Origin: Coemansia sp. RSA 487
Taxonomy: Eukaryota; Kickxellomycota; Kickxellomycetes; Kickxellales; Kickxellaceae
DNA length: 46,135 nt
Assembly (NCBI GenBank): GCA_027577595.1
Contig: JANBRJ010000119.1
Coordinates: 1 to 46,135, forward strand
Direction: 5' to 3'
Shown here in pieces: positions 7,606 through 46,135 of this stretch. The first letter of the stretch is position 1, and each line of letters starts with the position of its first letter. Both the position numbers and the translations under genes were made by a program. The notes under the pieces are model-generated. The model worked only from the letters and a program-made list of their open reading frames with translations. It was not told the origin of the DNA and did no database searches.

Positions 7606-8092
7606 TTCCTTCCTTTTCGATTTCTTCAATAGTCCGGCTGTTGTGTATGGGCTGTATAGTGCTGTGGTAAATCCGCGTAAAGGTGCTGATAAACGATAGC
7701 GAACTGTACAGAGAAGCCCAAGTATTATAATTTGGGAGAGGTTTAAGCTTTTAGGTGCTAGGTAAAAAAATATAAAATACTAGAAATTGAAAATTGAAAA
7801 AAGAAAAAAAAGGCACCTGTAAAAAGTGCTAAAAGAGATGGCACTGATTGCTATGTTGTACAAAACTAACTGCGTCGGTCGGCGTGGCATATGCGTCAGT
7901 GCGAAACAGGAAAACACAAGAGAAAACACAGATGATTAGTACTGTTTCCTAGAAGCAGCCACAGATGTTTATTTCTTCTGCTCTCATTTGAGCACCTTAC
8001 CTGCAAAAGGGACAGCATCCTGTCCTAGAACTAGGGTCCCTAGAACTAGGATTTGCCGCGGCTATAACCTTGGCTGAATGTCGTGGTGGTTG
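7606..8092. other. Pelota upstream region and Fanzor 3' flank with palindromes
   Basis: No gene is seen in these ~490 bases. The part next to the Fanzor remnant is structured: a perfect 6-bp hairpin GGACAG-CATC-CTGTCC at 8010-8025, directly joined to two tandem 15-base units (8023-8037 and 8038-8052), each holding the near-palindrome CCTAGAACTAGG (8024-8035 and 8039-8050). In Fanzor and TnpB systems the guide (omega) RNA scaffold is made from the 3' end of the element, which is where these repeats lie relative to the gene. Assigning them to an omega RNA is inference. Confidence 0.5.
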
Positions 8093-10529
8093 TTATTTGT
8101 TGGTCCTCGCCGTCTTCTTTGCCGCAGTCGTCTTCCTTTTCTTCTTGGGCTGCTGTTCATCGGTGGTAACAGCGGCTGCAGGCTGACTGCGACAGAAGCG
8201 CTCTGGAGTCTCACCATGATCGCGAAGACCATGGAAAATATGCCTGAAGTTGAGAACGGCTGCGAGATCTCAGCTGTACATATGTGAACGAGGAGCCAAA
8301 ACACCATCCACTTCCACAGGCCCCATACATAGTTCGTTGGTGCACTTAAGGAGACCGTGGCAGAGTATTTCTTTCATCTTCTTACGTTGGTAGGGGCGGG
8401 GGTTGGGCACTTTCAGGAACTTCTCAAGAGCGCCGGTGAGGCAGTTCGGGCAAGTCTTTGACGTTCTGAATTCGTCAATAAGATAGACTTGGCACCCTTT
8501 CTTCCTCAACATTCGTCGAAACCCGACACCCCGTATAAACTCATGGTAGCGAGCCATTGGCACACTCCAGTTACCCAAGATCGCAGTGGAGGTTTCATCG
8601 TCGCATGTCGCCCGAATGCTCTTTGCTAGCTGCTCATCGGCTTGTTGCTGCTTGATGTGAGCCGATTGCCGAAGCTTGCGATGAATCGGCTGAGGGTTGT
8701 TCCGATTCTTGCTGGTGGTCATGGCGTTTGTGTAGAATTTACTTAGCACTGGCCAAACAGCAGCACGCGTCCTGACATATTGCTCATATTTACCTGGCAA
8801 TATCGATGTGCACGAAAAAGCAGCCAATCTGGCCTCAGCAGCCTTGATTTCGTTGCTGTCTGGATGCGCTTTCTTGCCCTTTTCCCTCAGCTTGCGGTAG
8901 TGGGTTGTCCGGGTTTCTTTAGCCTTCTGGCTCCGTGTGTACCGGAAAAGAGCTTTCTCCTCAGAGGTGCTCTCCTCCGTCATGCCAAAGACAGTATCCT
9001 GGCAACCTGGATCCATGAAAATTGGGTTTTCCATGTTGGCCAGCTGCTCTGGCAAAAGCTCGTGGATATATGTGAACTCACCTAACTTCTTTTCGCCTGG
9101 CTTTTCTCGCTTCCTGGGCTTCCTGGGCTTTCTGGGCTGGTCCTCCAGGGGTGAGTTAGTAGCTACGCTTGCGACTGGAGCAGTCAGCCCACTTCCGCTG
9201 GCCACAATGGAGGCATTTGTTGAAAATAATATAATGTGGATCTCTTAATCTAATAGTCCATTTTTAACATCCAAAAAAGGTCCCCTCCAAAAGCAAAAGG
9301 GCAAAAGGGCTTCTCTAAAAGAAGGTATTTATAGGCCTCTATTAACTAAGAATTATGTAAGCAGCTCGTTGTGATGCGTCATACTCATCATGACCTGGAA
9401 ACAAACAGTGCCCTTGATTTACAATCAAGGTGTTGGTAGATCTGCCAACAGCATTTGTTTCAGTGTCCCTTTTCTTTGCTTTCCAGCTGCTTTTTTCTTT
9501 GGCCGCTGCAGTCTTTTTGATCACTGACACCAACACGCCATCAGTCTGTATTGTGCCATAGAACCTGAAGCCATTTCTTGTTCTCAGCACCCGTGTGACT
9601 ATTCATTGAGCAGTCTATACAAATAGTTTTCAATGGGAAATTTCGCGTTATAGCTCCAGCCCATTATGTTTCGACATAATACAGAGGTGTCAATCTCTGT
9701 GCATTGGCACAAACGACTTCCGCAACGGGAAACACTGGAAAGACCTGTAGCCATTCATCTCAAGGAGCACTGCCAAGCAATAGAATGCTATGAAGTGCTT
9801 TTTTGGATGCGCCTTGATATTGTAATAAAGGCCCTCCTCTGCAAACTTGTAGTCGTTGTCGTATGCTGTCAACACAGGTTCAAGCATGTCCCCGATGTTC
9901 TTGTCGCCCACAGTGATAACTGGAAGAACAGTGCTGCGGTGTTTTATCGCCTCTTTCAACTCTCGTCCGGATTTCCAGATCTAGTCTTCATACGCTTCCT
10001 TTATCTCATCCGTCGTTCTGCCCTTCATTGCCTCCTCAAGGTCCCTCTTGCGCTCCCGAGTTTTCAGCAGAGCATTTACTGCACGCCAAAGATACTGACC
10101 AAACTTGGTCTGTATATTATTCATGTATGCAGTGTAAATTCTTGCTGCCTCGAACTGTGCTGTCTGGTTTGGGTTGGCTATATCAAACTCTGTGATGCCA
10201 GCAGCCTCCTTGTACGCATCCAGGTGCTTGCGTATGACCCTCCTGTACTCCTGGATTTCAGCCTTGACATTCGGCCTGACTTTCCGCTTGGTGAGGTGCA
10301 GGAATACCTCGCCAAAAAACCTCTTTTCCGGGCACACAGAGAGATCGAGCTGCTTGTGCGTAGCTAGCCCATATATGTACGCAGAAGCTGTATTGGTCAC
10401 TACAACATAGTCGTTTACCTTGGTAATGTCGTTTCTGTCATTCACCAGAGATTTTAGGGGACACTTTATAACATGCGTCCCTGTGTCTAATATATCATCA
10501 TTGTCTATTGTGGATGGGTGAGCAAACAA
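8093..10529 (-). pseudogene. Fanzor (eukaryotic TnpB-like nuclease) gene, decayed
   Basis: Fanzors are transposon-borne RNA-guided DNA nucleases related to bacterial TnpB. Reading right to left on the minus strand: an N-terminal region ('HVIKCPLKSL', 'KRKVRPNVKAEIQEYRRVI') to about 9981; a middle part with 'KSFVPMHR', then 'IDTSVL'; the 'FYGTIQTDGVLVSV' block near 9570; RuvC-I 'IFMDPGCQD' near 9080-9050; 'ILGNWS'; 'YLIDEFRTS' with the relocated RuvC glutamate; a CPNC...C...C zinc-binding region; RuvC-III 'DLAAVLNFRH'; and a basic tail containing PKKKRK, a likely nuclear localisation signal, stopping at 8093-8095. The frame is interrupted about five times, including in-frame stops at 9981-9983 and 8270-8272, so this copy should be dead; one interruption (about 9190-9350) could be an intron. 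No serine recombinase (TnpA) is nearby. Confidence 0.85.
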
Positions 10530-10755
10530 GAGCAGGTAACTAATATAATATATGCGTTGAAAGGTGTATTTGGTGCTACTGGAAGAAATAAAATGTCAAA
10601 GGAAAGCTAAGGAGAAACAAAAGTGAAAGGGAAAAATAAACGTTCTTGGAATGTAAAATGCACTATCGCCACTGCAAATCTCTTACCATTCGACGCGTAT
10701 ACATCCTTCTTATTTAACGCAATTAGTTTTGCGAAATACAGTATCTTTAGAAAAT

Positions 10756-25806: not shown

Positions 25807-26757
25807 TTACGAAGTCAGAAAGCCGATAGAGTTTTTGACTTGTTGCAAAGATTTACCACTGTCGGCTTCAGAGTCATTTAATTCGGCTATGTCGTTATGT
25901 CGAGGGTCACAGATTGGAGAAGCAGTCAAAACTGCAGAGGAAGTGGTTGATGAAGTGGGGGAGCTGGATGGCACCACTAGCTCCGGCAAGCTGCAAGAGC
26001 TGCTGGACTCATTGCATGTGAAAGTGGTCGGAGGATCCTGGGAATGTGGAGAAGAAGCGTCAGAAGATGAGTGCGAGATTGAAACAATGGCAGAGTCGGC
26101 AGCATTGGAATATGGCATTGTTTGGCAGGAGCTCTGGGGCAGCAGCGAGAAAACATGTGGAGAATCCGGAGCATCGGATGCAGGCGTGACTTCCTTTTCA
26201 AAGGTGCTGCTGCTTGTCCTGCGGCGCTTTCTTGTAGGAGAAGGAAGGGGAACGGAGGCAGACAAGAGGCTTTGCGGCTCCAGATGCTGCTGGAGAGACT
26301 TTATATAGCTGACGCACTGCTCGAGGACCTCGAGTTTTTGCATACGGGCTTCGTTGCGTATCCAGGGGACCAGAGCTTTGAGCTCGTCGATGACGTTGTT
26401 GGTACGTTCCCTACGCCGGCGCTCCATTGCTGAGTGCGAGATGCGACGCTTGCGCTCGCGTTCCTCGGCACTATTGCTGGTGGCTGCTGCGTGGTAACGA
26501 GGGCCATGGTACGTGGGTTCGCTGAGCAGGGGAGATGCATAGTCTTCGTAGGCAGGTGGGGCATACGAGTGGTAGCCTGGGCGTGATGGGGGTTGGTGGT
26601 TTTGGAACGCAGGCAAAAGCTGTGTGTCTGGGGGCGACAGGAAAGAGGTATCGGGATATCGCTGATGTAGCGAGTAGCGGCGAGGCGACGCCGGAACTGG
26701 ATTGGCAGCGGTGGAGCTGCGAGAAAAATGAGCAGACGCGGTGCTGACCGTATACAT
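25807..26757 (-). CDS. bHLH transcription factor, paralogue 1
   Basis: A nuclear DNA-binding protein of 316 residues. The bHLH domain is at about 103-160: 'RRISHSAMERRRRERTNN' basic region, helix 1 'VIDELKALVPWI', a short loop, helix 2 'KLEVLEQCVSYIKSLQQHL'. H, E and R at basic positions 5, 9 and 13 are the set used by CACGTG (class B) readers. The N-terminus is Pro/Tyr/Ser-rich and the C-terminal half Ser/Pro-rich, as expected for activation regions. It ends in NSIGFLTS, a diverged form of the MKVNFLL tail of paralogues 2 and 3. A TATATAAA box lies 167 bases upstream of the ATG. Target genes cannot be inferred. Confidence 0.9.
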   Translation of the reverse strand: MYTVSTASAHFSRSSTAANPVPASPRRYSLHQRYPDTSFLSPPDTQLLPAFQNHQPPSRPGYHSYAPPAYEDYASPLLSEPTYHGPRYHAAATSNSAEERERKRRISHSAMERRRRERTNNVIDELKALVPWIRNEARMQKLEVLEQCVSYIKSLQQHLEPQSLLSASVPLPSPTRKRRRTSSSTFEKEVTPASDAPDSPHVFSLLPQSSCQTMPYSNAADSAIVSISHSSSDASSPHSQDPPTTFTCNESSSSCSLPELVVPSSSPTSSTTSSAVLTASPICDPRHNDIAELNDSEADSGKSLQQVKNSIGFLTS

Positions 26758-30231: not shown

Positions 30232-31770
30232 ATGCCTAGTTCTCGCCGCCAAAAGTCGCTGTCTAAAAGCGTCCGGGGCCTCTCTAAATATCAACAAAAA
30301 CGGTGCACGGCTCCGACCACATATTCCTCTCCTACAAATATCACATCCGCTGCCTTGCCCCTTTCAGCAGACACAGCAACCGCTGGCACAGACTCATGCA
30401 ACCAAGCACACGCGCCATTTTTGCCACATTCCGGTGGCCGTCCTTGCACCGAGAATCCACATCCACATCCCGATCGCCAGCGCCAGCAGCAGGATTCTCC
30501 GTTGCACCCACGGACGGCAGCGGCCATTCCAGAGCTACAGGAACGAGCCATCATCAGCCAGCATAACAGCCCACAGACGATGCATTTTGGCAATGCCAGC
30601 ATCAGCAAGCACCCGCCGCATTTCTACTCTCAACCGCACCCAGGCATATATCAACAATTCTCCAGTAGCAGCATTTCTTCCTATCAGCCTCATCATCTCC
30701 ACCATGCTAGCCCTGCGCCCTCATCTTCCTCCTTTTCCTCACCCATGCAACAGACTTCGCGGCAGCACATCCATTCCACCTACGTCTCACACCTTCCGCC
30801 GCCTTCTCGTCATCTTGTGTACCAGCCCCGTCCATCATCCGGTCTGTTGTCTGCGAGTTCGACCGTCGAGCACCATCCGCACGGCACACAGCCCTGCCAC
30901 AATGCCAGAGAATCTTCTTACTATATCTGTCACCGTGGCCCCTCTACTCACGCCGAGTCTCCACTTACAGCACCCGCCGTTCTCTATACGCAGTCCGAGC
31001 CGTCATCGGCGCTGCCAATCTTGCCAGAACATCAGCACGCGATGACACGCAGTCATCATCATCCTTATTCGCAGCCCCTGGGCCACTCCACTGGTCATGA
31101 CTACCCACATGGCTCGAACGCCGGCCTGCACCCAACTTCTGTGCACCAGAGCCACGCTGCTGTGCCGTCTTCTTCCTCCGCAATGTCTGGGCTCTCAGCG
31201 GCCAGCAGAAGCTATCTAACCGAAGGACGCCCGCTTACCGCTGAGGAAAAGGAGCTGAAGCGTAAAGTATCGCATTCAGCAATAGAGAAGCGACGGCGCG
31301 AGCGTACAAACACAGTGCTTCGTGAGCTACAAAGCATCATCCCTGGCTTGTCAAAGTCTGGAAAAATACAAAAGCTTGAAATTTTGGAAGCTGCTGCCGA
31401 GTATATACGCGATCTAACCACCGAGCCAAAGCCAAATGATAAAGTGGAAACAGGTTCCTCACACGCAGGACATCTTGGTTCCAAAAAGCAGCGCAGAAAA
31501 AGGATGAACTGCTCGCAGGAATACGGCAGTGCTTTGGATAGCCTCCATGCCCCAAGGGTGCTTACAGAAAGCACTCCTTTAGAAACAGTCATGGAGCAGC
31601 AGCAACATCCAGCCGTTGCAACGCCAATGTCTGTGTCTTCAAACGCTTCAAGCGACGACTCTAGCGACGATGCTTTGGCAAACAACCTTCCAAAGCCCGC
31701 ACCCGACCTCCATTCTTCATCTCCTGATCCTTCCTCCATGAAGGTCAACTTTCTTCTTTGCAAAGAGTGA
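30232..31770 (+). CDS. bHLH transcription factor, paralogue 2
   Basis: A 512-residue single-exon nuclear protein. Residues 1-340 are low-complexity, rich in Ser, Pro, His and Gln (a probable activation region). The bHLH domain is at about 342-396: 'KRKVSHSAIEKRRRERTN', helix 1 'VLRELQSIIPGL', helix 2 'KLEILEAAAEYIRDL'. The basic region has H5/E9/R13, predicting CACGTG binding. The C-terminal part is Ser/Asp-rich and ends in SMKVNFLLCKE; MKVNFLL is shared exactly with paralogue 3. The start follows an A-rich leader, a good context for fungal initiation. The closest relative in the window is paralogue 3 (near-identical basic region and helix 2). Confidence 0.9.
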   Translation: MPSSRRQKSLSKSVRGLSKYQQKRCTAPTTYSSPTNITSAALPLSADTATAGTDSCNQAHAPFLPHSGGRPCTENPHPHPDRQRQQQDSPLHPRTAAAIPELQERAIISQHNSPQTMHFGNASISKHPPHFYSQPHPGIYQQFSSSSISSYQPHHLHHASPAPSSSSFSSPMQQTSRQHIHSTYVSHLPPPSRHLVYQPRPSSGLLSASSTVEHHPHGTQPCHNARESSYYICHRGPSTHAESPLTAPAVLYTQSEPSSALPILPEHQHAMTRSHHHPYSQPLGHSTGHDYPHGSNAGLHPTSVHQSHAAVPSSSSAMSGLSAASRSYLTEGRPLTAEEKELKRKVSHSAIEKRRRERTNTVLRELQSIIPGLSKSGKIQKLEILEAAAEYIRDLTTEPKPNDKVETGSSHAGHLGSKKQRRKRMNCSQEYGSALDSLHAPRVLTESTPLETVMEQQQHPAVATPMSVSSNASSDDSSDDALANNLPKPAPDLHSSSPDPSSMKVNFLLCKE

Positions 31771-41077: not shown

Positions 41078-44060
41078 GCCAAATATATCTATTTTCCATT
41101 TTTTAGATCATTACCATTTATATTAATGCATGACCTGTTGCTGCAATCGTAATCGTGTGTTGCTATTACGCAGTGTGTTTTCTTCTGTTCTTGGCATTAT
41201 TCTTGTAGCACCATGTCTTTTTTAATATTATATTCTGAATTGTTTGCGCAAAGGCATACATGTAATATTGTGAATAGATCAACCAAAACAAGCACTAGGA
41301 AACAATCAAATGCTTTGCATTTAATTGCAGCACAAGACCCGTCTGTCTGTCTGCAAATATGTAGCCAGAAGCGTAAATGGTATTATTGCTTGGTGAAAAA
41401 CATCATTTGAGAAAGATAATATGGCATTGTCCTTTTGTTTACAAAAAATTAGATGAAACTTTGAATGTGGCAATGGAAAGAGCGCAGAATTGAATACCAG
41501 AGTAGTACGTGCTGGAGGCATCGCGGAACTTCCTTCTTTACTGTGTAAAATGTATTGGTAATTTACAATGTGAATTTACGGGATTCGCCTAGTGTCGATG
41601 TTAGTTGCATATAGCATGGAGTGATTCTTATGTTTTGGCATGCAGCTTGTCTGCTAGCGTCTTTGCAACACAAGAAAAGCAAGCTGCTATTTTTAAGGAA
41701 AGTCGTCGATATGGAGAAGAAATTCGGCGTTATGTTTACATCGGGATGCGTGGGCGGTGCAGATGGAGTTTACAGTTGATAAGACAAAAATGTTTGTATG
41801 CTATTAATTATGCGTACTCGATTCTACTATCTGAGGTATGCTGAAGATCGCAATGCGGTGAATTATTCGGTGCGCATTTGTTTATCGGTGGAAAATCGCC
41901 AAAAAAAAACAATGCCAAACCAAAAAAAGTACTATAGCAGTGTGGTTGGAAACGCGTATAGTTGCAAGCATAAGCAGGATGGCCATGTATTACATGTGCT
42001 TTTCAATATCTACAACATGTACTTTTTCTACGCACATAATATTAACAACCACGTGGAACCTGCAAAAGCCATCAGCATAAATGGCAACCAAAAAATTAAA
42101 CGAGGCCGACATTGCAAACATGATTGTGCTCACGTAACTCTTCCATTTTTGCCGATTGGAGTGGAATAAGTGGTGATAAATTCAAGAAATGTTAGTTCAC
42201 AATGTTCTTTTTGGTATTTCCCGCAGATCTAATCGCATTCCTGGGTTTTTTTTGCAGAAATCTGCCAGCCAAAACGGCCAAGTTTATATCTGTTCTATCA
42301 CTTTAGCTTTTGATGCCTGTCACAGCATTTTTATCACCTTCTGCAGTATGCGTAAAGCGGCATTTAGCCTATCTCTGCTGATAATGGCTGCTTATCATAA
42401 TAGGAGAAGTAATTGCCAATATTTGTTACGCATTCGGTCACACTTCAGAGCTGAGAATGTGGAGATAAATGACGCATGGAAAGAATAGCGCCTTCTAAGG
42501 GCAATATCTCGGACAGTGTAGCAAAGGATGCATGATGACCACCGCTTTTATATTTTGACTGCTGATACGCGGATGCTATGTCAGAAACGATTAGACAGGG
42601 CAAAGCAGAGCAAAATACAGGTAAGCGTGTTCATGTGAACAAAAGGTATTATGTAAAAGCAGAAAAATATGCTAGATAAATGGACTGAGCAAAAACACTT
42701 GCTTGCTATGCATAGCTGTAGCCTTTCTTTTTGGACTGGTGGGAAAAGTAAACAAATACGTATGTGCGTGCGTGCTGCAGGCTCTTACGACGCATTGAAA
42801 ATTTCTAATGCTGGCCAAGCACAATGGGATCCGCCATTCCTGGTGTAGTTGGGAGGGCTGGTATGCAAGATTATAGACATTGCTGGCCCGAAGAATACGT
42901 ATGAGATAAACGGAGCAGGCGGAGTGAGCGGAGCAGAAGCAACGACCATCAAGCAGCACGAGGTATGATTGGCCGACGACCTCGCGGCTCGGGCCTTTTC
43001 GAGGAAGTTGTGTAGACGCTGTGCAAATCGTCCATGGATGCTGCTGTGTTGTTTTTTCGTGCAGTGTATTAAAATGCCCAGCTGGTCGATCTCGGATGTA
43101 TTGATTGGCTGCATGGCGACGACGCATATGCCCATGCTGAGGTCGGCCGAACGAAAGCCTGTGGACACGGGCAATTTAGTGGGCATATTGACATTCCAAT
43201 CTTATCGCCAGCGAATGGCAGCAGCCGCACACTGCACATCAAAGAATGCCGCAAAAGGAAAACCCACACAGATAAGTAATAAGTGAGCGAGTATTTGTGC
43301 GAACTGTGTGGCTGTCACACGATGTGCAGAATGGCAGAAAAGCATTCCAGGCTGCGGTTGGTCGGGTACACCGACAAGAGGCTGAAGGAAACGCCGCAAT
43401 TCACAACTCTAGTGGGTTTTATTCAAGCTTGTTTGTCCCATCAGCGCGCGCAGAAACAGCAACAAAAGGAGAAGCAGCCGCCACCGCCGCAGCATCGACA
43501 GGCAAACAGAGGCGACATTGGTAGCAGGCACAGTCCCGGGAATATCGCTTGGGCCAAGATGCACAAATGAATACAAAAACACACAGTCGGGTGCAGAACA
43601 CTGGTCGGATATCCACCCCAGGGCATATCAGCAGGGGCGGCGGCCGGGAGAAAATATCTATTTTCTGGTGGCCTGTTTCGCGGCAGGCGTGCTATTATTC
43701 GGGCAGAAGGGGGAAGACGAAGTGTGGAGATATTATGCCCAGAGCAGCAGGCATCCTCCAGTGGTGGCGGGCGGATTGCCCGTGCCTTGGAACACGATTG
43801 AGCGAGAAATTGTCCTTCTATTCCGTGCTGTCTGCTCGCACGCACAGATTCGTTTAAAAGGCTCGGAACATCCCCAGCCGCGGCTGCACTCCCCGACCTC
43901 CCCTCTTTTCCTCACAGAACCTGCCTCTACTAATCCCCTTCTGGCTCCCTTTTTCGTATTGTCTTGCCCCAAAACAGCTCTTTCTGTTGTTCCCTCCCTG
44001 CTCTTCAATCGTTGCTCCTCTGCAGCTCTTTCTTTCTTTCATTTCCTTTGGCACAGCATC
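41078..44060. other. 3-kb gene-poor interval, AT-rich then GC-rich
   Basis: From 41078 to about 42700 the DNA is strongly AT-rich with no recognisable gene; a CACGTG inside a longer palindrome-like CCACGTGG lies at 42049-42056. From about 42700 to 44060 it becomes GC-richer. Here several overlapping open frames occur on both strands (for example 133 codons on the minus strand, 42785-43186), none matching a family I know. The last few hundred bases are the bHLH 3 promoter and CT-rich leader. Confidence 0.45.
43853..43860 (+). promoter_or_regulatory. TATA-like box of bHLH gene 3
   Basis: TTTAAAAG about 200 bases before the chosen start codon at 44061, followed by a C/T-rich leader; it supports the internal start over the longer upstream frame. 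Confidence 0.4.
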
Positions 44061-44981
44061 ATGTTCCAGCCGGCCCGCTACCACCAGCCGCAGGCAGTCC
44101 CCATTTCTGCCTCTCCATCCCGCCACATATACCTCGAGCACCACGCTCTACGTACAAGCCAGCCAGAACTCCAACACAAATCGCACATTCCTCCTCCCCT
44201 TGTTCTGCCGCCACTCATGCACAGAAGCGACAGAGCCAAGAACCTTAGTTACCGCTCTTCTGGCCATCCGAGCCTTGTTTCTCCGCGCTCGCCTCCTAGT
44301 GCCTGCTACTCACCTGGGACAGCCGTGGCTTCTGATGCTACCGTTGTTGACTATCCCTCGACGATAATCCCCAAGAGCCCTAATATCTCTGCCAAGTCTC
44401 CATCTCTTTCGTACGTATCGTCCAAGACCACATCTCCAGCACCCCTCAGCGCGCTTGCTGCTGCTGCCGTGTCTTCGCCATCCTTCGATGGCCCGTCCAT
44501 CTGTGCGAATGTGTGCGCTGCATCCATGAAGCAGGACAGCCAGCAACAGCCCCAGCAGCCTGCGAAAAGAAGAAGAGGCGGACGTGGTGCGCGTTCAATG
44601 TACACAGCCGAGGAGAAGGAAATGCGGCGCAAGATTTCACACTCTGCAATCGAGAAACGGCGACGTGAGCGCACAAACAATGTGCTCCGCGATCTGCAGA
44701 ACATGGTTCCGTGGCTCAGCAAGAGCAACAAGGTCCAGAAACTAGAGATCCTTGAAGCCGCCGCGCAATATATCAAGGAGCTACGTCTACCGTCCAGCAC
44801 AGTCGCTGGTGGTTGCGACAAGGACATTCGTGGTTCGCCGACTTTGTCAGCTTCGACACATGTGGATGAGTCTGATACCGATCCGACAAATGAATGTGTG
44901 GAGGACGAACAGGTTCACCACCGGCAGCACTCTTTGCCAGAAAGTCAAGACGCAATGAAGGTCAATTTTCTTCTTTCGTAA
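44061..44981 (+). CDS. bHLH transcription factor, paralogue 3
   Basis: A 306-residue nuclear protein from ATG 44061 (MFQPARYHQPQAV...). The open frame runs back to 43518, but that part overlaps the TATA-like box and CT-rich leader and has no protein character. The N-terminus is Ser/Pro-rich. The bHLH domain lies at about 186-243: 'RRKISHSAIEKRRRERTN', helix 1 'VLRDLQNMVPWL', helix 2 'KLEILEAAAQYIKEL', with H5/E9/R13 for CACGTG. The tail is acidic and ends in AMKVNFLLS. It shares the EEKE(M/L)(R/K)RK lead-in and the tail with paralogue 2 and 'VPWL/VPWI' with paralogue 1. Confidence 0.9.
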   Translation: MFQPARYHQPQAVPISASPSRHIYLEHHALRTSQPELQHKSHIPPPLVLPPLMHRSDRAKNLSYRSSGHPSLVSPRSPPSACYSPGTAVASDATVVDYPSTIIPKSPNISAKSPSLSYVSSKTTSPAPLSALAAAAVSSPSFDGPSICANVCAASMKQDSQQQPQQPAKRRRGGRGARSMYTAEEKEMRRKISHSAIEKRRRERTNNVLRDLQNMVPWLSKSNKVQKLEILEAAAQYIKELRLPSSTVAGGCDKDIRGSPTLSASTHVDESDTDPTNECVEDEQVHHRQHSLPESQDAMKVNFLLS

Positions 44982-45096: not shown

Positions 45097-45132
<36 letters not shown>

Positions 45133-45381
45133 TCCAAAGTTCCAATTTATTTTTGGCCGTAAATATGCAAAAACGCATATTGTCTACAACAGTACTGTGA
45201 AACACTGCACTCCTTTTGCCATCTGGTGTAACTGACCAATGGTATTGTCGATGACCTCCTATTACCACTAACATGTGACAACCGAAGCCTTGTATCTGGC
45301 ATTAGTTTCTACCTAGAACCGTTCTGGACAGTTGAAGTGCTATAACACCCAGGGAAAATATGGTTGATGTTAAAACTGCTG
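44982..45381. other. Gap between bHLH 3 and Fanzor 2, with Fanzor 3' flank
   Basis: Holds the bHLH 3 3' flank and the downstream flank of the convergent Fanzor. CCTAGAAC occurs at 45312-45319 within CCTAGAACCGTTCTGG, a hairpin-like palindrome about 55 bases beyond the Fanzor stop; the same octamer lies in the 3' flank of Fanzor 1. Confidence 0.45.
45096..45132. repeat. AAT trinucleotide microsatellite
   Basis: About twelve tandem ATA/AAT units in the expected 3' UTR of bHLH 3. Confidence 0.95.
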
Positions 45382-46135
45382 CTACAATTTCGCTGAGCGG
45401 AATTGCATTCTGGGCTGCGATATTGCTAAACGTGGCTTCTTTCTGGGCTGCGTAGAGCCACTGGCAGACCTCTTGGTGCCTCTCGCGGATTTCTTGGGCT
45501 TCTTTGCTGGAAGAAGAGCGGTACCACGCTTAAAACGTTCAGGCCGCTTGTGTGTTTGGCGCAAACTATGGAGGATATGCCTGAAATCCAATACAGCAAC
45601 AAGATCCCTGTTCCAAAACCGAGCAACAGGCTCTTTCCCAAGATGGTTAGCAGGTTTCATGTTATCTGCCATGGACTCCACACATTTTTTGTTTTGACAC
45701 ATTAGGAGTCCATGGCAAGTAGCATACTCACGCCTATTCTTTTTTGGGTAGGGCCTTGGGTTTGGAACCAGTTCTTCAGAATGCACAAGCCTGGCTTCGC
45801 AACAACCAGGGCAGAAAGTCGAGGTACGGAATTCGTCCAACAGGTACACTTTGAACCCATGCTTCCTCAATATCCCACGCATGCCTACACCCCGGATGGG
45901 CTCGTGGTACTTGCACATACCAGCAGACCAATTTCCAAGAACCAGGACGGGATCAGGACCAAACTGTTCGCGGATAAGGTTGGCAAGGGTATGATCTGAC
46001 CTTTGGCTGTTAAGGTACGCTGCTAGACGCAGCTGTCGATGAAGTGGTTTCTTGTTTGTTGTGCTGTTTGTCTGTGTGCAGGAATAGAACTTGCTCAGAA
46101 GGGGCCACACCTCAGCCTGGACCTCAATGAACCTC
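45382..46135 (-). CDS. Fanzor (TnpB-like RNA-guided nuclease), C-terminal part, cut by window edge
   Basis: The frame is open from the right edge to a stop at 45382-45384, about 250 codons. Seen in order: 'WPLLSKFYS' (as in copy 1), 'VLGNWSAGMCKYHEPIRGVG', 'VYLLDEFRTSTFCPGCC' with the relocated RuvC glutamate and first zinc ligands, 'NPRPYPKKNRREYATCHGLL' with further Cys, 'FWNRDLVAVLDFRHIL' with the RuvC-III aspartate, and a basic tail (KKPKKSARGTKRS, RKKPRLA) fit for nuclear import. No lesion is seen in the visible part, unlike copy 1. The two copies agree at roughly half of positions, so they are different families rather than recent duplicates. RuvC-I and the N-terminal guide-binding region lie outside the window. 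Whether it is mobile or domesticated cannot be told. Confidence 0.88.
   Translation of the reverse strand, partial: RFIEVQAEVWPLLSKFYSCTQTNSTTNKKPLHRQLRLAAYLNSQRSDHTLANLIREQFGPDPVLVLGNWSAGMCKYHEPIRGVGMRGILRKHGFKVYLLDEFRTSTFCPGCCEARLVHSEELVPNPRPYPKKNRREYATCHGLLMCQNKKCVESMADNMKPANHLGKEPVARFWNRDLVAVLDFRHILHSLRQTHKRPERFKRGTALLPAKKPKKSARGTKRSASGSTQPRKKPRLAISQPRMQFRSAKL

Follow-up and report, generated by a model that had tools for sequence, protein, structure and literature searches.

Fanzor1 genes in Tc/mariner elements, with and without a transposase, were described by Bao and Jurka in 2013 (PMC3627910), and their descriptions of single elements provide the closest precedents for the locus reported here. 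Copies of the fungal element SPu-1, the source of SpuFz1, are given there as full-length and partial, with terminal inverted repeats (TIRs) of 30-33 bp at both ends and putative TA duplications. In Spizellomyces punctatus, according to the parts of Saito et al. 2023 (PMC10432273) that deal with its loci, 42 Fz loci stand beside 134 RNA-only ghost loci, and RNA-guided cutting was shown. In the element descriptions of PMC3627910, the mariner-type elements PUl-1, PGv-1 and PUl-4 carry Fanzor1 either beside a Tc1/mariner transposase or alone, in the latter case with TIRs of mariner type and TA duplications. The same source describes MCi-2 of Mucor circinelloides, with a constant 3′ part and variable 5′ parts, and CMe-1A of the red alga Cyanidioschyzon merolae, with ~150 copies in one genome. 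The carriers of Fanzors (hAT, mariner, Crypton and Helitron) and the repositioned glutamate are treated in passages of PMC10711439 (2023).

The window analyzed here is the complete contig C119 (46135 bases) from an assembly of 184 contigs and 17.79 Mb. At its right end, a Fanzor1 gene runs off the contig, and the minus-strand frame from 46134 to 45385 is open for 250 codons between the contig edge and a TAG (Table 1). Searching the PDB sequences with phmmer, we found that the fragment matches the Fanzor1 of Parasitella parasitica (PpFz1, E 1.1e-39) and that of Spizellomyces punctatus (SpuFz1, E 3.5e-19), which bears out the Fanzor gene proposed by the first-pass annotation. The third row of this search, RPB11 with E 0.42, is non-significant. 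Pfam and NCBIfam assigned no family to the fragment, and the identification as Fanzor1 therefore comes from the phmmer matches and the sister copies.

In the phmmer alignments, the glutamate of DEFRTS falls on E541 of SpuFz1, and the aspartate of FWNRD falls on D606, as expected for the RuvC glutamate and the RuvC-III aspartate named on first pass. The residue numbers follow the passages on SpuFz1 in PMC11423790, which names E541, and in PMC10432273; the chain-to-protein offset of 394 was counted by hand on the alignment of the sister copy L004. The zinc-binding cysteines and the basic stretches of the C-terminal tail could likewise be located, and the tail appears nuclear-localisation-like. 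Of the Fanzor1 motif given in PMC3627910, D-X(125,275)-[TS][TS]-X-X-C4 zinc finger-X(5,50)-RD in the form stated there, the fragment holds the part from TS to RD, and the first D lies beyond the contig end. Judged from its sequence, the window-end protein is a Fanzor1 with its visible catalytic residues in place.

Table 1. Positions of the Fanzor features in the window (contig C119).
Feature	Position	Strand	Evidence or remark
Family-A Fanzor1 gene, C-terminal 250 codons, cut by the contig end	45382..46135	-	TAG stop 45382-45384; phmmer
DEFRTS, repositioned RuvC glutamate	45820..45837	-	Alignment with SpuFz1 E541
C4 zinc finger, CPGC (45802-45813) to CQNKKC (45682-45699)	45682..45813	-	phmmer alignment, translation
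FWNRD, RuvC-III aspartate	45604..45618	-	Alignment with SpuFz1 D606
K/R-rich C-terminal tail, basic stretches 45469-45504 and 45430-45444	45430..45504	-	Sequence
Conserved 3′ noncoding stretch, predicted guide-RNA scaffold	45246..45372	-	Sisters' stop codon to family-A right end
Decayed family-B Fanzor element, Tc1/mariner type, without transposase	7844..10743	-	Right end approximate
Left terminal inverted repeat of the family-B element	10643..10743	-	
Family-B Fanzor, N-terminal part, six stop codons in match	9447..10493	-	
233-bp insert TGTTGG...CAACA with 5-bp AATGC duplication, inside the family-B Fanzor	9218..9450	-	
Family-B Fanzor, C-terminal part (DPG block, DEFRTS)	8093..9217	-	

The C-terminal motif is common to TnpB and Fanzor in the motif description of PMC3627910, as would suit a bacterial TnpB or another contaminant at the contig end. 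However, the solved proteins that match best are fungal Fanzor1s, many other contigs have sister copies, and the contig itself bears eukaryotic genes, for example those for an eRF1-domain protein, a MYST acetyltransferase and HAM1_N, so that we give contamination practically no credence. Since HAM1_N is a domain that we take to be fungal and the Parasitella Fanzor1 is the best solved relative, the host is very likely a fungus.

Full-length L004 matched only PpFz1 (E 5.7e-99) and SpuFz1 (E 9.9e-39) among the PDB sequences at E <= 0.01, and its D, E and D align with D383, E541 and D606 of SpuFz1 by the hand-counted offset. Pfam returned only an insignificant Tudor match for L004. Of the solved proteins, PpFz1 (PDB 9cf0-9cf3) comes closest to it, with an alignment that covers almost all of the sequence, and the DPGRRDLL, DEFRTS, CPxC and WNRD blocks are alike in PpFz1 and L004, a member of the family of the window copy, referred to as family A. 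The two differ between two aligned blocks, where PpFz1 has ~107 residues (chain 989-1096) and L004 has 6. By position, we take the extra residues of PpFz1 to be the cyclophilin-binding FRI domain, as far as PMC11423790 describes it. Four aligned sequences were used in one scan of viral contigs for relatives, and of the 44 pattern matches obtained, 0 were confirmed.

A search of the 17.8-Mb genome with the fragment revealed at least 152 Fanzor matches, a lower bound, with 150 of 175 candidates scored. When the 150 matches listed were merged on the same strand within 1.5 kb, they fell into at least 126 places, many of them partial. Among the matches listed, ten further places share 83-88% identity with the fragment across 138 residues or more. 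In six of these ten (L002-L007), the open frame extends over 763-816 codons and includes the three catalytic residues, and the usual start codon is kept in all but L007. An uninterrupted copy, deemed worth following on first pass, would be no exception in a genome with six such sisters. Long frames also occur in other Fanzor lineages, on C57 (L012, 750 codons, and C57:6773, 748 codons), and at further places on C18 (875 codons, one TGA in the match) and C29 (902 codons).

Each of the 12 sister frames examined, seven of family A and five of a second family, B, retains the catalytic D, E and D; the E motif of L006 was missed by one search pattern and found by the other. The strict Fanzor1 motif fits nine of 11 sister frames, with a spacing of 178 or 182 from D to TS and of 24 or 18 from the zinc finger to RD. 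L002 and L022 miss it because the pattern demands DEFR, where they read EEFH and DEFK.

Counted by their common right end, family A has at least 21 copies including the window, ~81-93% identical in the Fanzor-bearing part and ~3.3 kb in the longest copies. The window gene is thus most probably a contig-cut copy of a multi-copy transposable element with Fanzor1 as its only gene. Family A is like SPu-1/SpuFz1 as that element is described in PMC3627910, a single-ORF fungal Fanzor1 element with many copies.

The alignment of the fragment starts at residue 498 of L004. As the contig ends inside the gene, ~500 N-terminal residues including the RuvC-I aspartate are absent from the window. The intact C-terminus claimed on first pass stands for the motifs and the 250 open codons. 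On the other hand, only the C-terminal third is seen, and the TAG replaces the sisters' CAG three codons before their common TAA (window 45370-45372), which makes the tail shorter by 4 residues. In the same way, "uninterrupted" describes the visible 250 codons, and not the N-terminal ~500 residues outside C119.

At the right end of contig C9 lies a family-A N-terminal half whose reading frame is shifted, and this could be the part missing from the window copy. The ends of C9 and C119 do not overlap, and ~580 bases lie between them in L004 coordinates, so the link is unproven. On a rival reading, the window copy would be a dead relic with a broken N-terminal half, giving no nuclease and at most an RNA. 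The early TAG, a 1-base deletion in the RNA stretch and the broken state of other family-A copies, e.g. L009, L010, L011 and L013, agree with such a fate, whereas the unproven link, the 250 open codons and a dN/dS of 0.21-0.40 against seven sisters speak against it. We judge the relic to have a little under an even chance.

Among the open copies, pairwise dN/dS is 0.19-0.32 in family A (21 pairs, seven copies) and 0.23-0.34 in family B (10 pairs, five copies), estimates that are biased low because the copies were picked for open frames. For copy-private changes, the ratio is 0.13-0.39 in family A and 0.19-0.31 in family B. The pairwise dS of family A ranges from 0.186 to 0.422 in the 21 pairs. 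Many long frames remain open though dS between copies is 0.19-0.42, and, with the private dN/dS of 0.13-0.39, this could indicate domesticated RNA-guided nucleases with a host job of their own, rather than selfish transposon parts. We consider domestication improbable, since the copies lie on many contigs among many decayed relatives, and family B has TIRs, TA and transposases. Spread over contigs, decay and transposon features together form the pattern of a mobile family, with selection acting during its spread. Even less probable, in our view, is that each retained copy is kept in place, giving the host a dispersed array of nucleases with different guides from their own flanks; under that reading, L002, L008 and L013, which share a repeat in the right flank, would have related guides.

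The coding part of family A is followed by a conserved noncoding stretch, 127 nt long in the window copy and 128 nt in most sisters. The length from the stop codon to the right end (...GGTCATTGGCA) is 128 nt in seven of seven family-A copies compared. Its divergence is low, with K of 0.065-0.137, below dS in 21 of 21 pairs. With this stretch as query, we found 21 places in the genome including the window. Against L002, 14 of the 21 right ends align without an indel, and small indels are present in seven (the window copy, L010, L013, L024, L061, L063 and L064); 18 of the 21 finish in [TC]G[GA][CT]A or similar, while L024, L059 and L061 differ. Within the trio L002/L004/L006, conservation of the 5′ noncoding region equals that of the 3′ region (0.09-0.13; three of six pairs), which counts against a special constraint on the 3′ stretch. 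A large contrast between 5′ and 3′ (0.66-0.72) appears only in pairs with L003.

RNAalifold gave four helices for the 3′ stretch, the first two being clear hairpins, and we propose this as a possible folded structure. The fold of the L002 stretch has a z of -2.45, with five of 200 shuffles as good. Covariation of the proposed fold is not above shuffles (three compensatory pairs, 1.9 expected), and Rfam and tRNA searches of the window gave no match. The first-pass annotation had pointed to an RNA leaving the 3′ end at 45380-45250; a conserved stretch that looks RNA-like does lie there, and the right end of the family is at 45246. By analogy with SpuFz1 and PpFz1, the stretch is a predicted guide-RNA scaffold that would be transcribed as omega RNA, and the DNA next to the right end, beyond 45246, would serve as its guide. 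The Fanzor would then cut matching DNA beside a short TAM, and cutting would help the element persist or spread through repair from an element-bearing copy. Two of the 21 right ends, C4:27093 and C6:25768, have no Fanzor nearby among the matches listed, and their similarity is lost upstream. They may be guide-only loci, comparable to the ghost loci of S. punctatus.

We also notice a repeat of ~200-310 bp that starts where three family-A copies end on the right, L013 (2202-2420), L002 (C113) and L008 (C65). A part of it is found at C37, it stands by itself at C57:66364 (L085) and C69:701-884 (L086), and the left flanks gave no match. The repeat begins GTAAGT-like and contains a CTAATC block, and may thus be intron-like or promoter-like. 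For an intron-like or guide-like sense we draw no conclusion, as the repeat occurs without family A at C57 and C69. In the window, an AAT triplet run is present at 45097-45132, ~110 bases beyond the Fanzor right end.

The copies of family A share a right end, while their left ends are variable. We found no full-length TIR pair in family A, and no inverted 13/16-base match near the left end in eight of ten copies, the eight validly tested (the test of L004 and L009 used a wrong right end). This ill-defined left end differs from SPu-1, which has TIRs at both ends, and MCi-2 is a precedent for the variable left ends, as CMe-1A is for the copy number. The 3′ regions of MCi-2 copies are 99% identical and its TSDs are 11-12 bp, as described for that element in PMC3627910, whereas family A is more diverged and an unsystematic look noticed no 11-12-bp TSD. 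No transposase above the PF13358 cut-off lies near family A, and transposase remnants near two copies (C54 and C37) are below the cut-off. A left-end motif like TACAGTGGTGAG occurs in four of ten joined copies with <=4 mismatches allowed. Some left ends carry TACAGTGGTGAGCCAATG or a near match, a Tc1-like motif. Together with the presence of family B in Tc1/mariner elements with a transposase, these ends suggest that family A may be moved by a Tc1/mariner transposase in trans. Helitrons are among the carriers in the 2023 paper cited at the outset, reportedly by Yoon et al. 2023. Capture by a Helitron was set aside after PF14214 had no match in the genome, a negative that says little, since PF14214 had no match in 14 of 14 control genomes either.

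Family B has TIRs of ~115 bp beginning TACAGTGTTTTGCAAAAC. They are found at both ends in six of ten loci (L014, L015, L016, L017, L023 and L030), and in L014, L015 and L016 the right-hand repeat is incomplete. L022, read further upstream, has only the right repeat; for L018 and L020, the sequence covered did not reach far enough upstream. The 6.4-kb L017 element has a TA at either end, and in the other family-B copies displayed, one or both ends have diverged. PF13358 (DDE_3) has 62 matches in the genome, many of them below the cut-off or with stops. Matches above the cut-off lie 5′ of the Fanzor on C19 (L017), C78 (L030), C82 (L018), C71 (L014), C1 (L023) and C23 (L015), in several cases on its strand, and several contain stops. 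Among the matches listed, and counted without a shuffled control, 17 of the 62 are within 7 kb of a Fanzor place. Sixteen of these share the strand of the Fanzor, 15 being 5′ of it and one 3′, and one is on the other strand. The L017 transposase has a 298-codon frame with TDEAGF, DNVPIH and NPIEELW blocks, and no such frame of at least 110 codons was found in L014, L015, L023 or L030.

The TIRs, the TA at L017 and the DDE transposase in several copies mark family B as sitting in Tc1/mariner transposons. Its architecture is that of PUl-1, PGv-1 and PUl-4. The mariner Fanzor1 examples named in the parts of PMC3627910 on these elements belong to oomycetes, viruses and Hydra, whereas the host here is a fungus.

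A second Fanzor in the window, which the first-pass annotation does not mention, is a family-B copy (Table 1). It has the left TIR and a remnant of the right one, most of which is lost, and a TGA at 8270-8272 stands directly before its RuvC-III aspartate. The insert that interrupts it looks solo-LTR-like. PF13358 has no match on contig C119, and the Fanzor gave sub-threshold matches to the Cas12f1-like TNB domain (Pfam) and a TnpB model (NCBIfam). This copy is evidently a relic. Elsewhere in the 46-kb contig, we notice three helix-loop-helix genes, at 25807-26757 (-), 30232-31770 (+) and 43518-44981 (+). The two plus-strand genes were matched by Pfam and their frames finish in a similar MKVNFLL tail, and the minus-strand gene was assigned by eye.

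Contig ends also touch family B. All 20 contig ends compared, picked because matches lay there, resemble family-B Fanzor parts; these are left ends of C1, C3, C4, C7, C8, C24, C25, C38, C41, C42, C53, C61, C66, C72, C75, C81, C92, C99, C107 and C149. Fifteen DDE_3 matches lie no more than 5 kb from the left end of a contig, and 14 of them point outwards. The assembly tends to break in family-B elements, and the ends are not near-identical. Collapse of identical repeats was rejected as the cause of these breaks, since none of the best-scoring matches displayed among the 20 ends and the joined copies exceeds 92.1%.

Fanzor1 in mariner elements, a family of ~150 copies and ghost loci are already published, and family A is within that frame. 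To it, this compact fungal genome adds a case in which at least two Fanzor families coexist. One has only the Fanzor, in the other some elements retain a Tc1/mariner transposase, and dN/dS among open copies is low in both. SPu-1 elements were found to have no transposase inside, as stated in the section of Saito et al. on them (PMC10432273), and a fungus with transposase and Fanzor in one element would therefore be a natural place to test a helper role. What is known of the Fanzor kind is unchanged; the finding is of value as a good example, in which one fungus has both open copies and relatives that carry a transposase.
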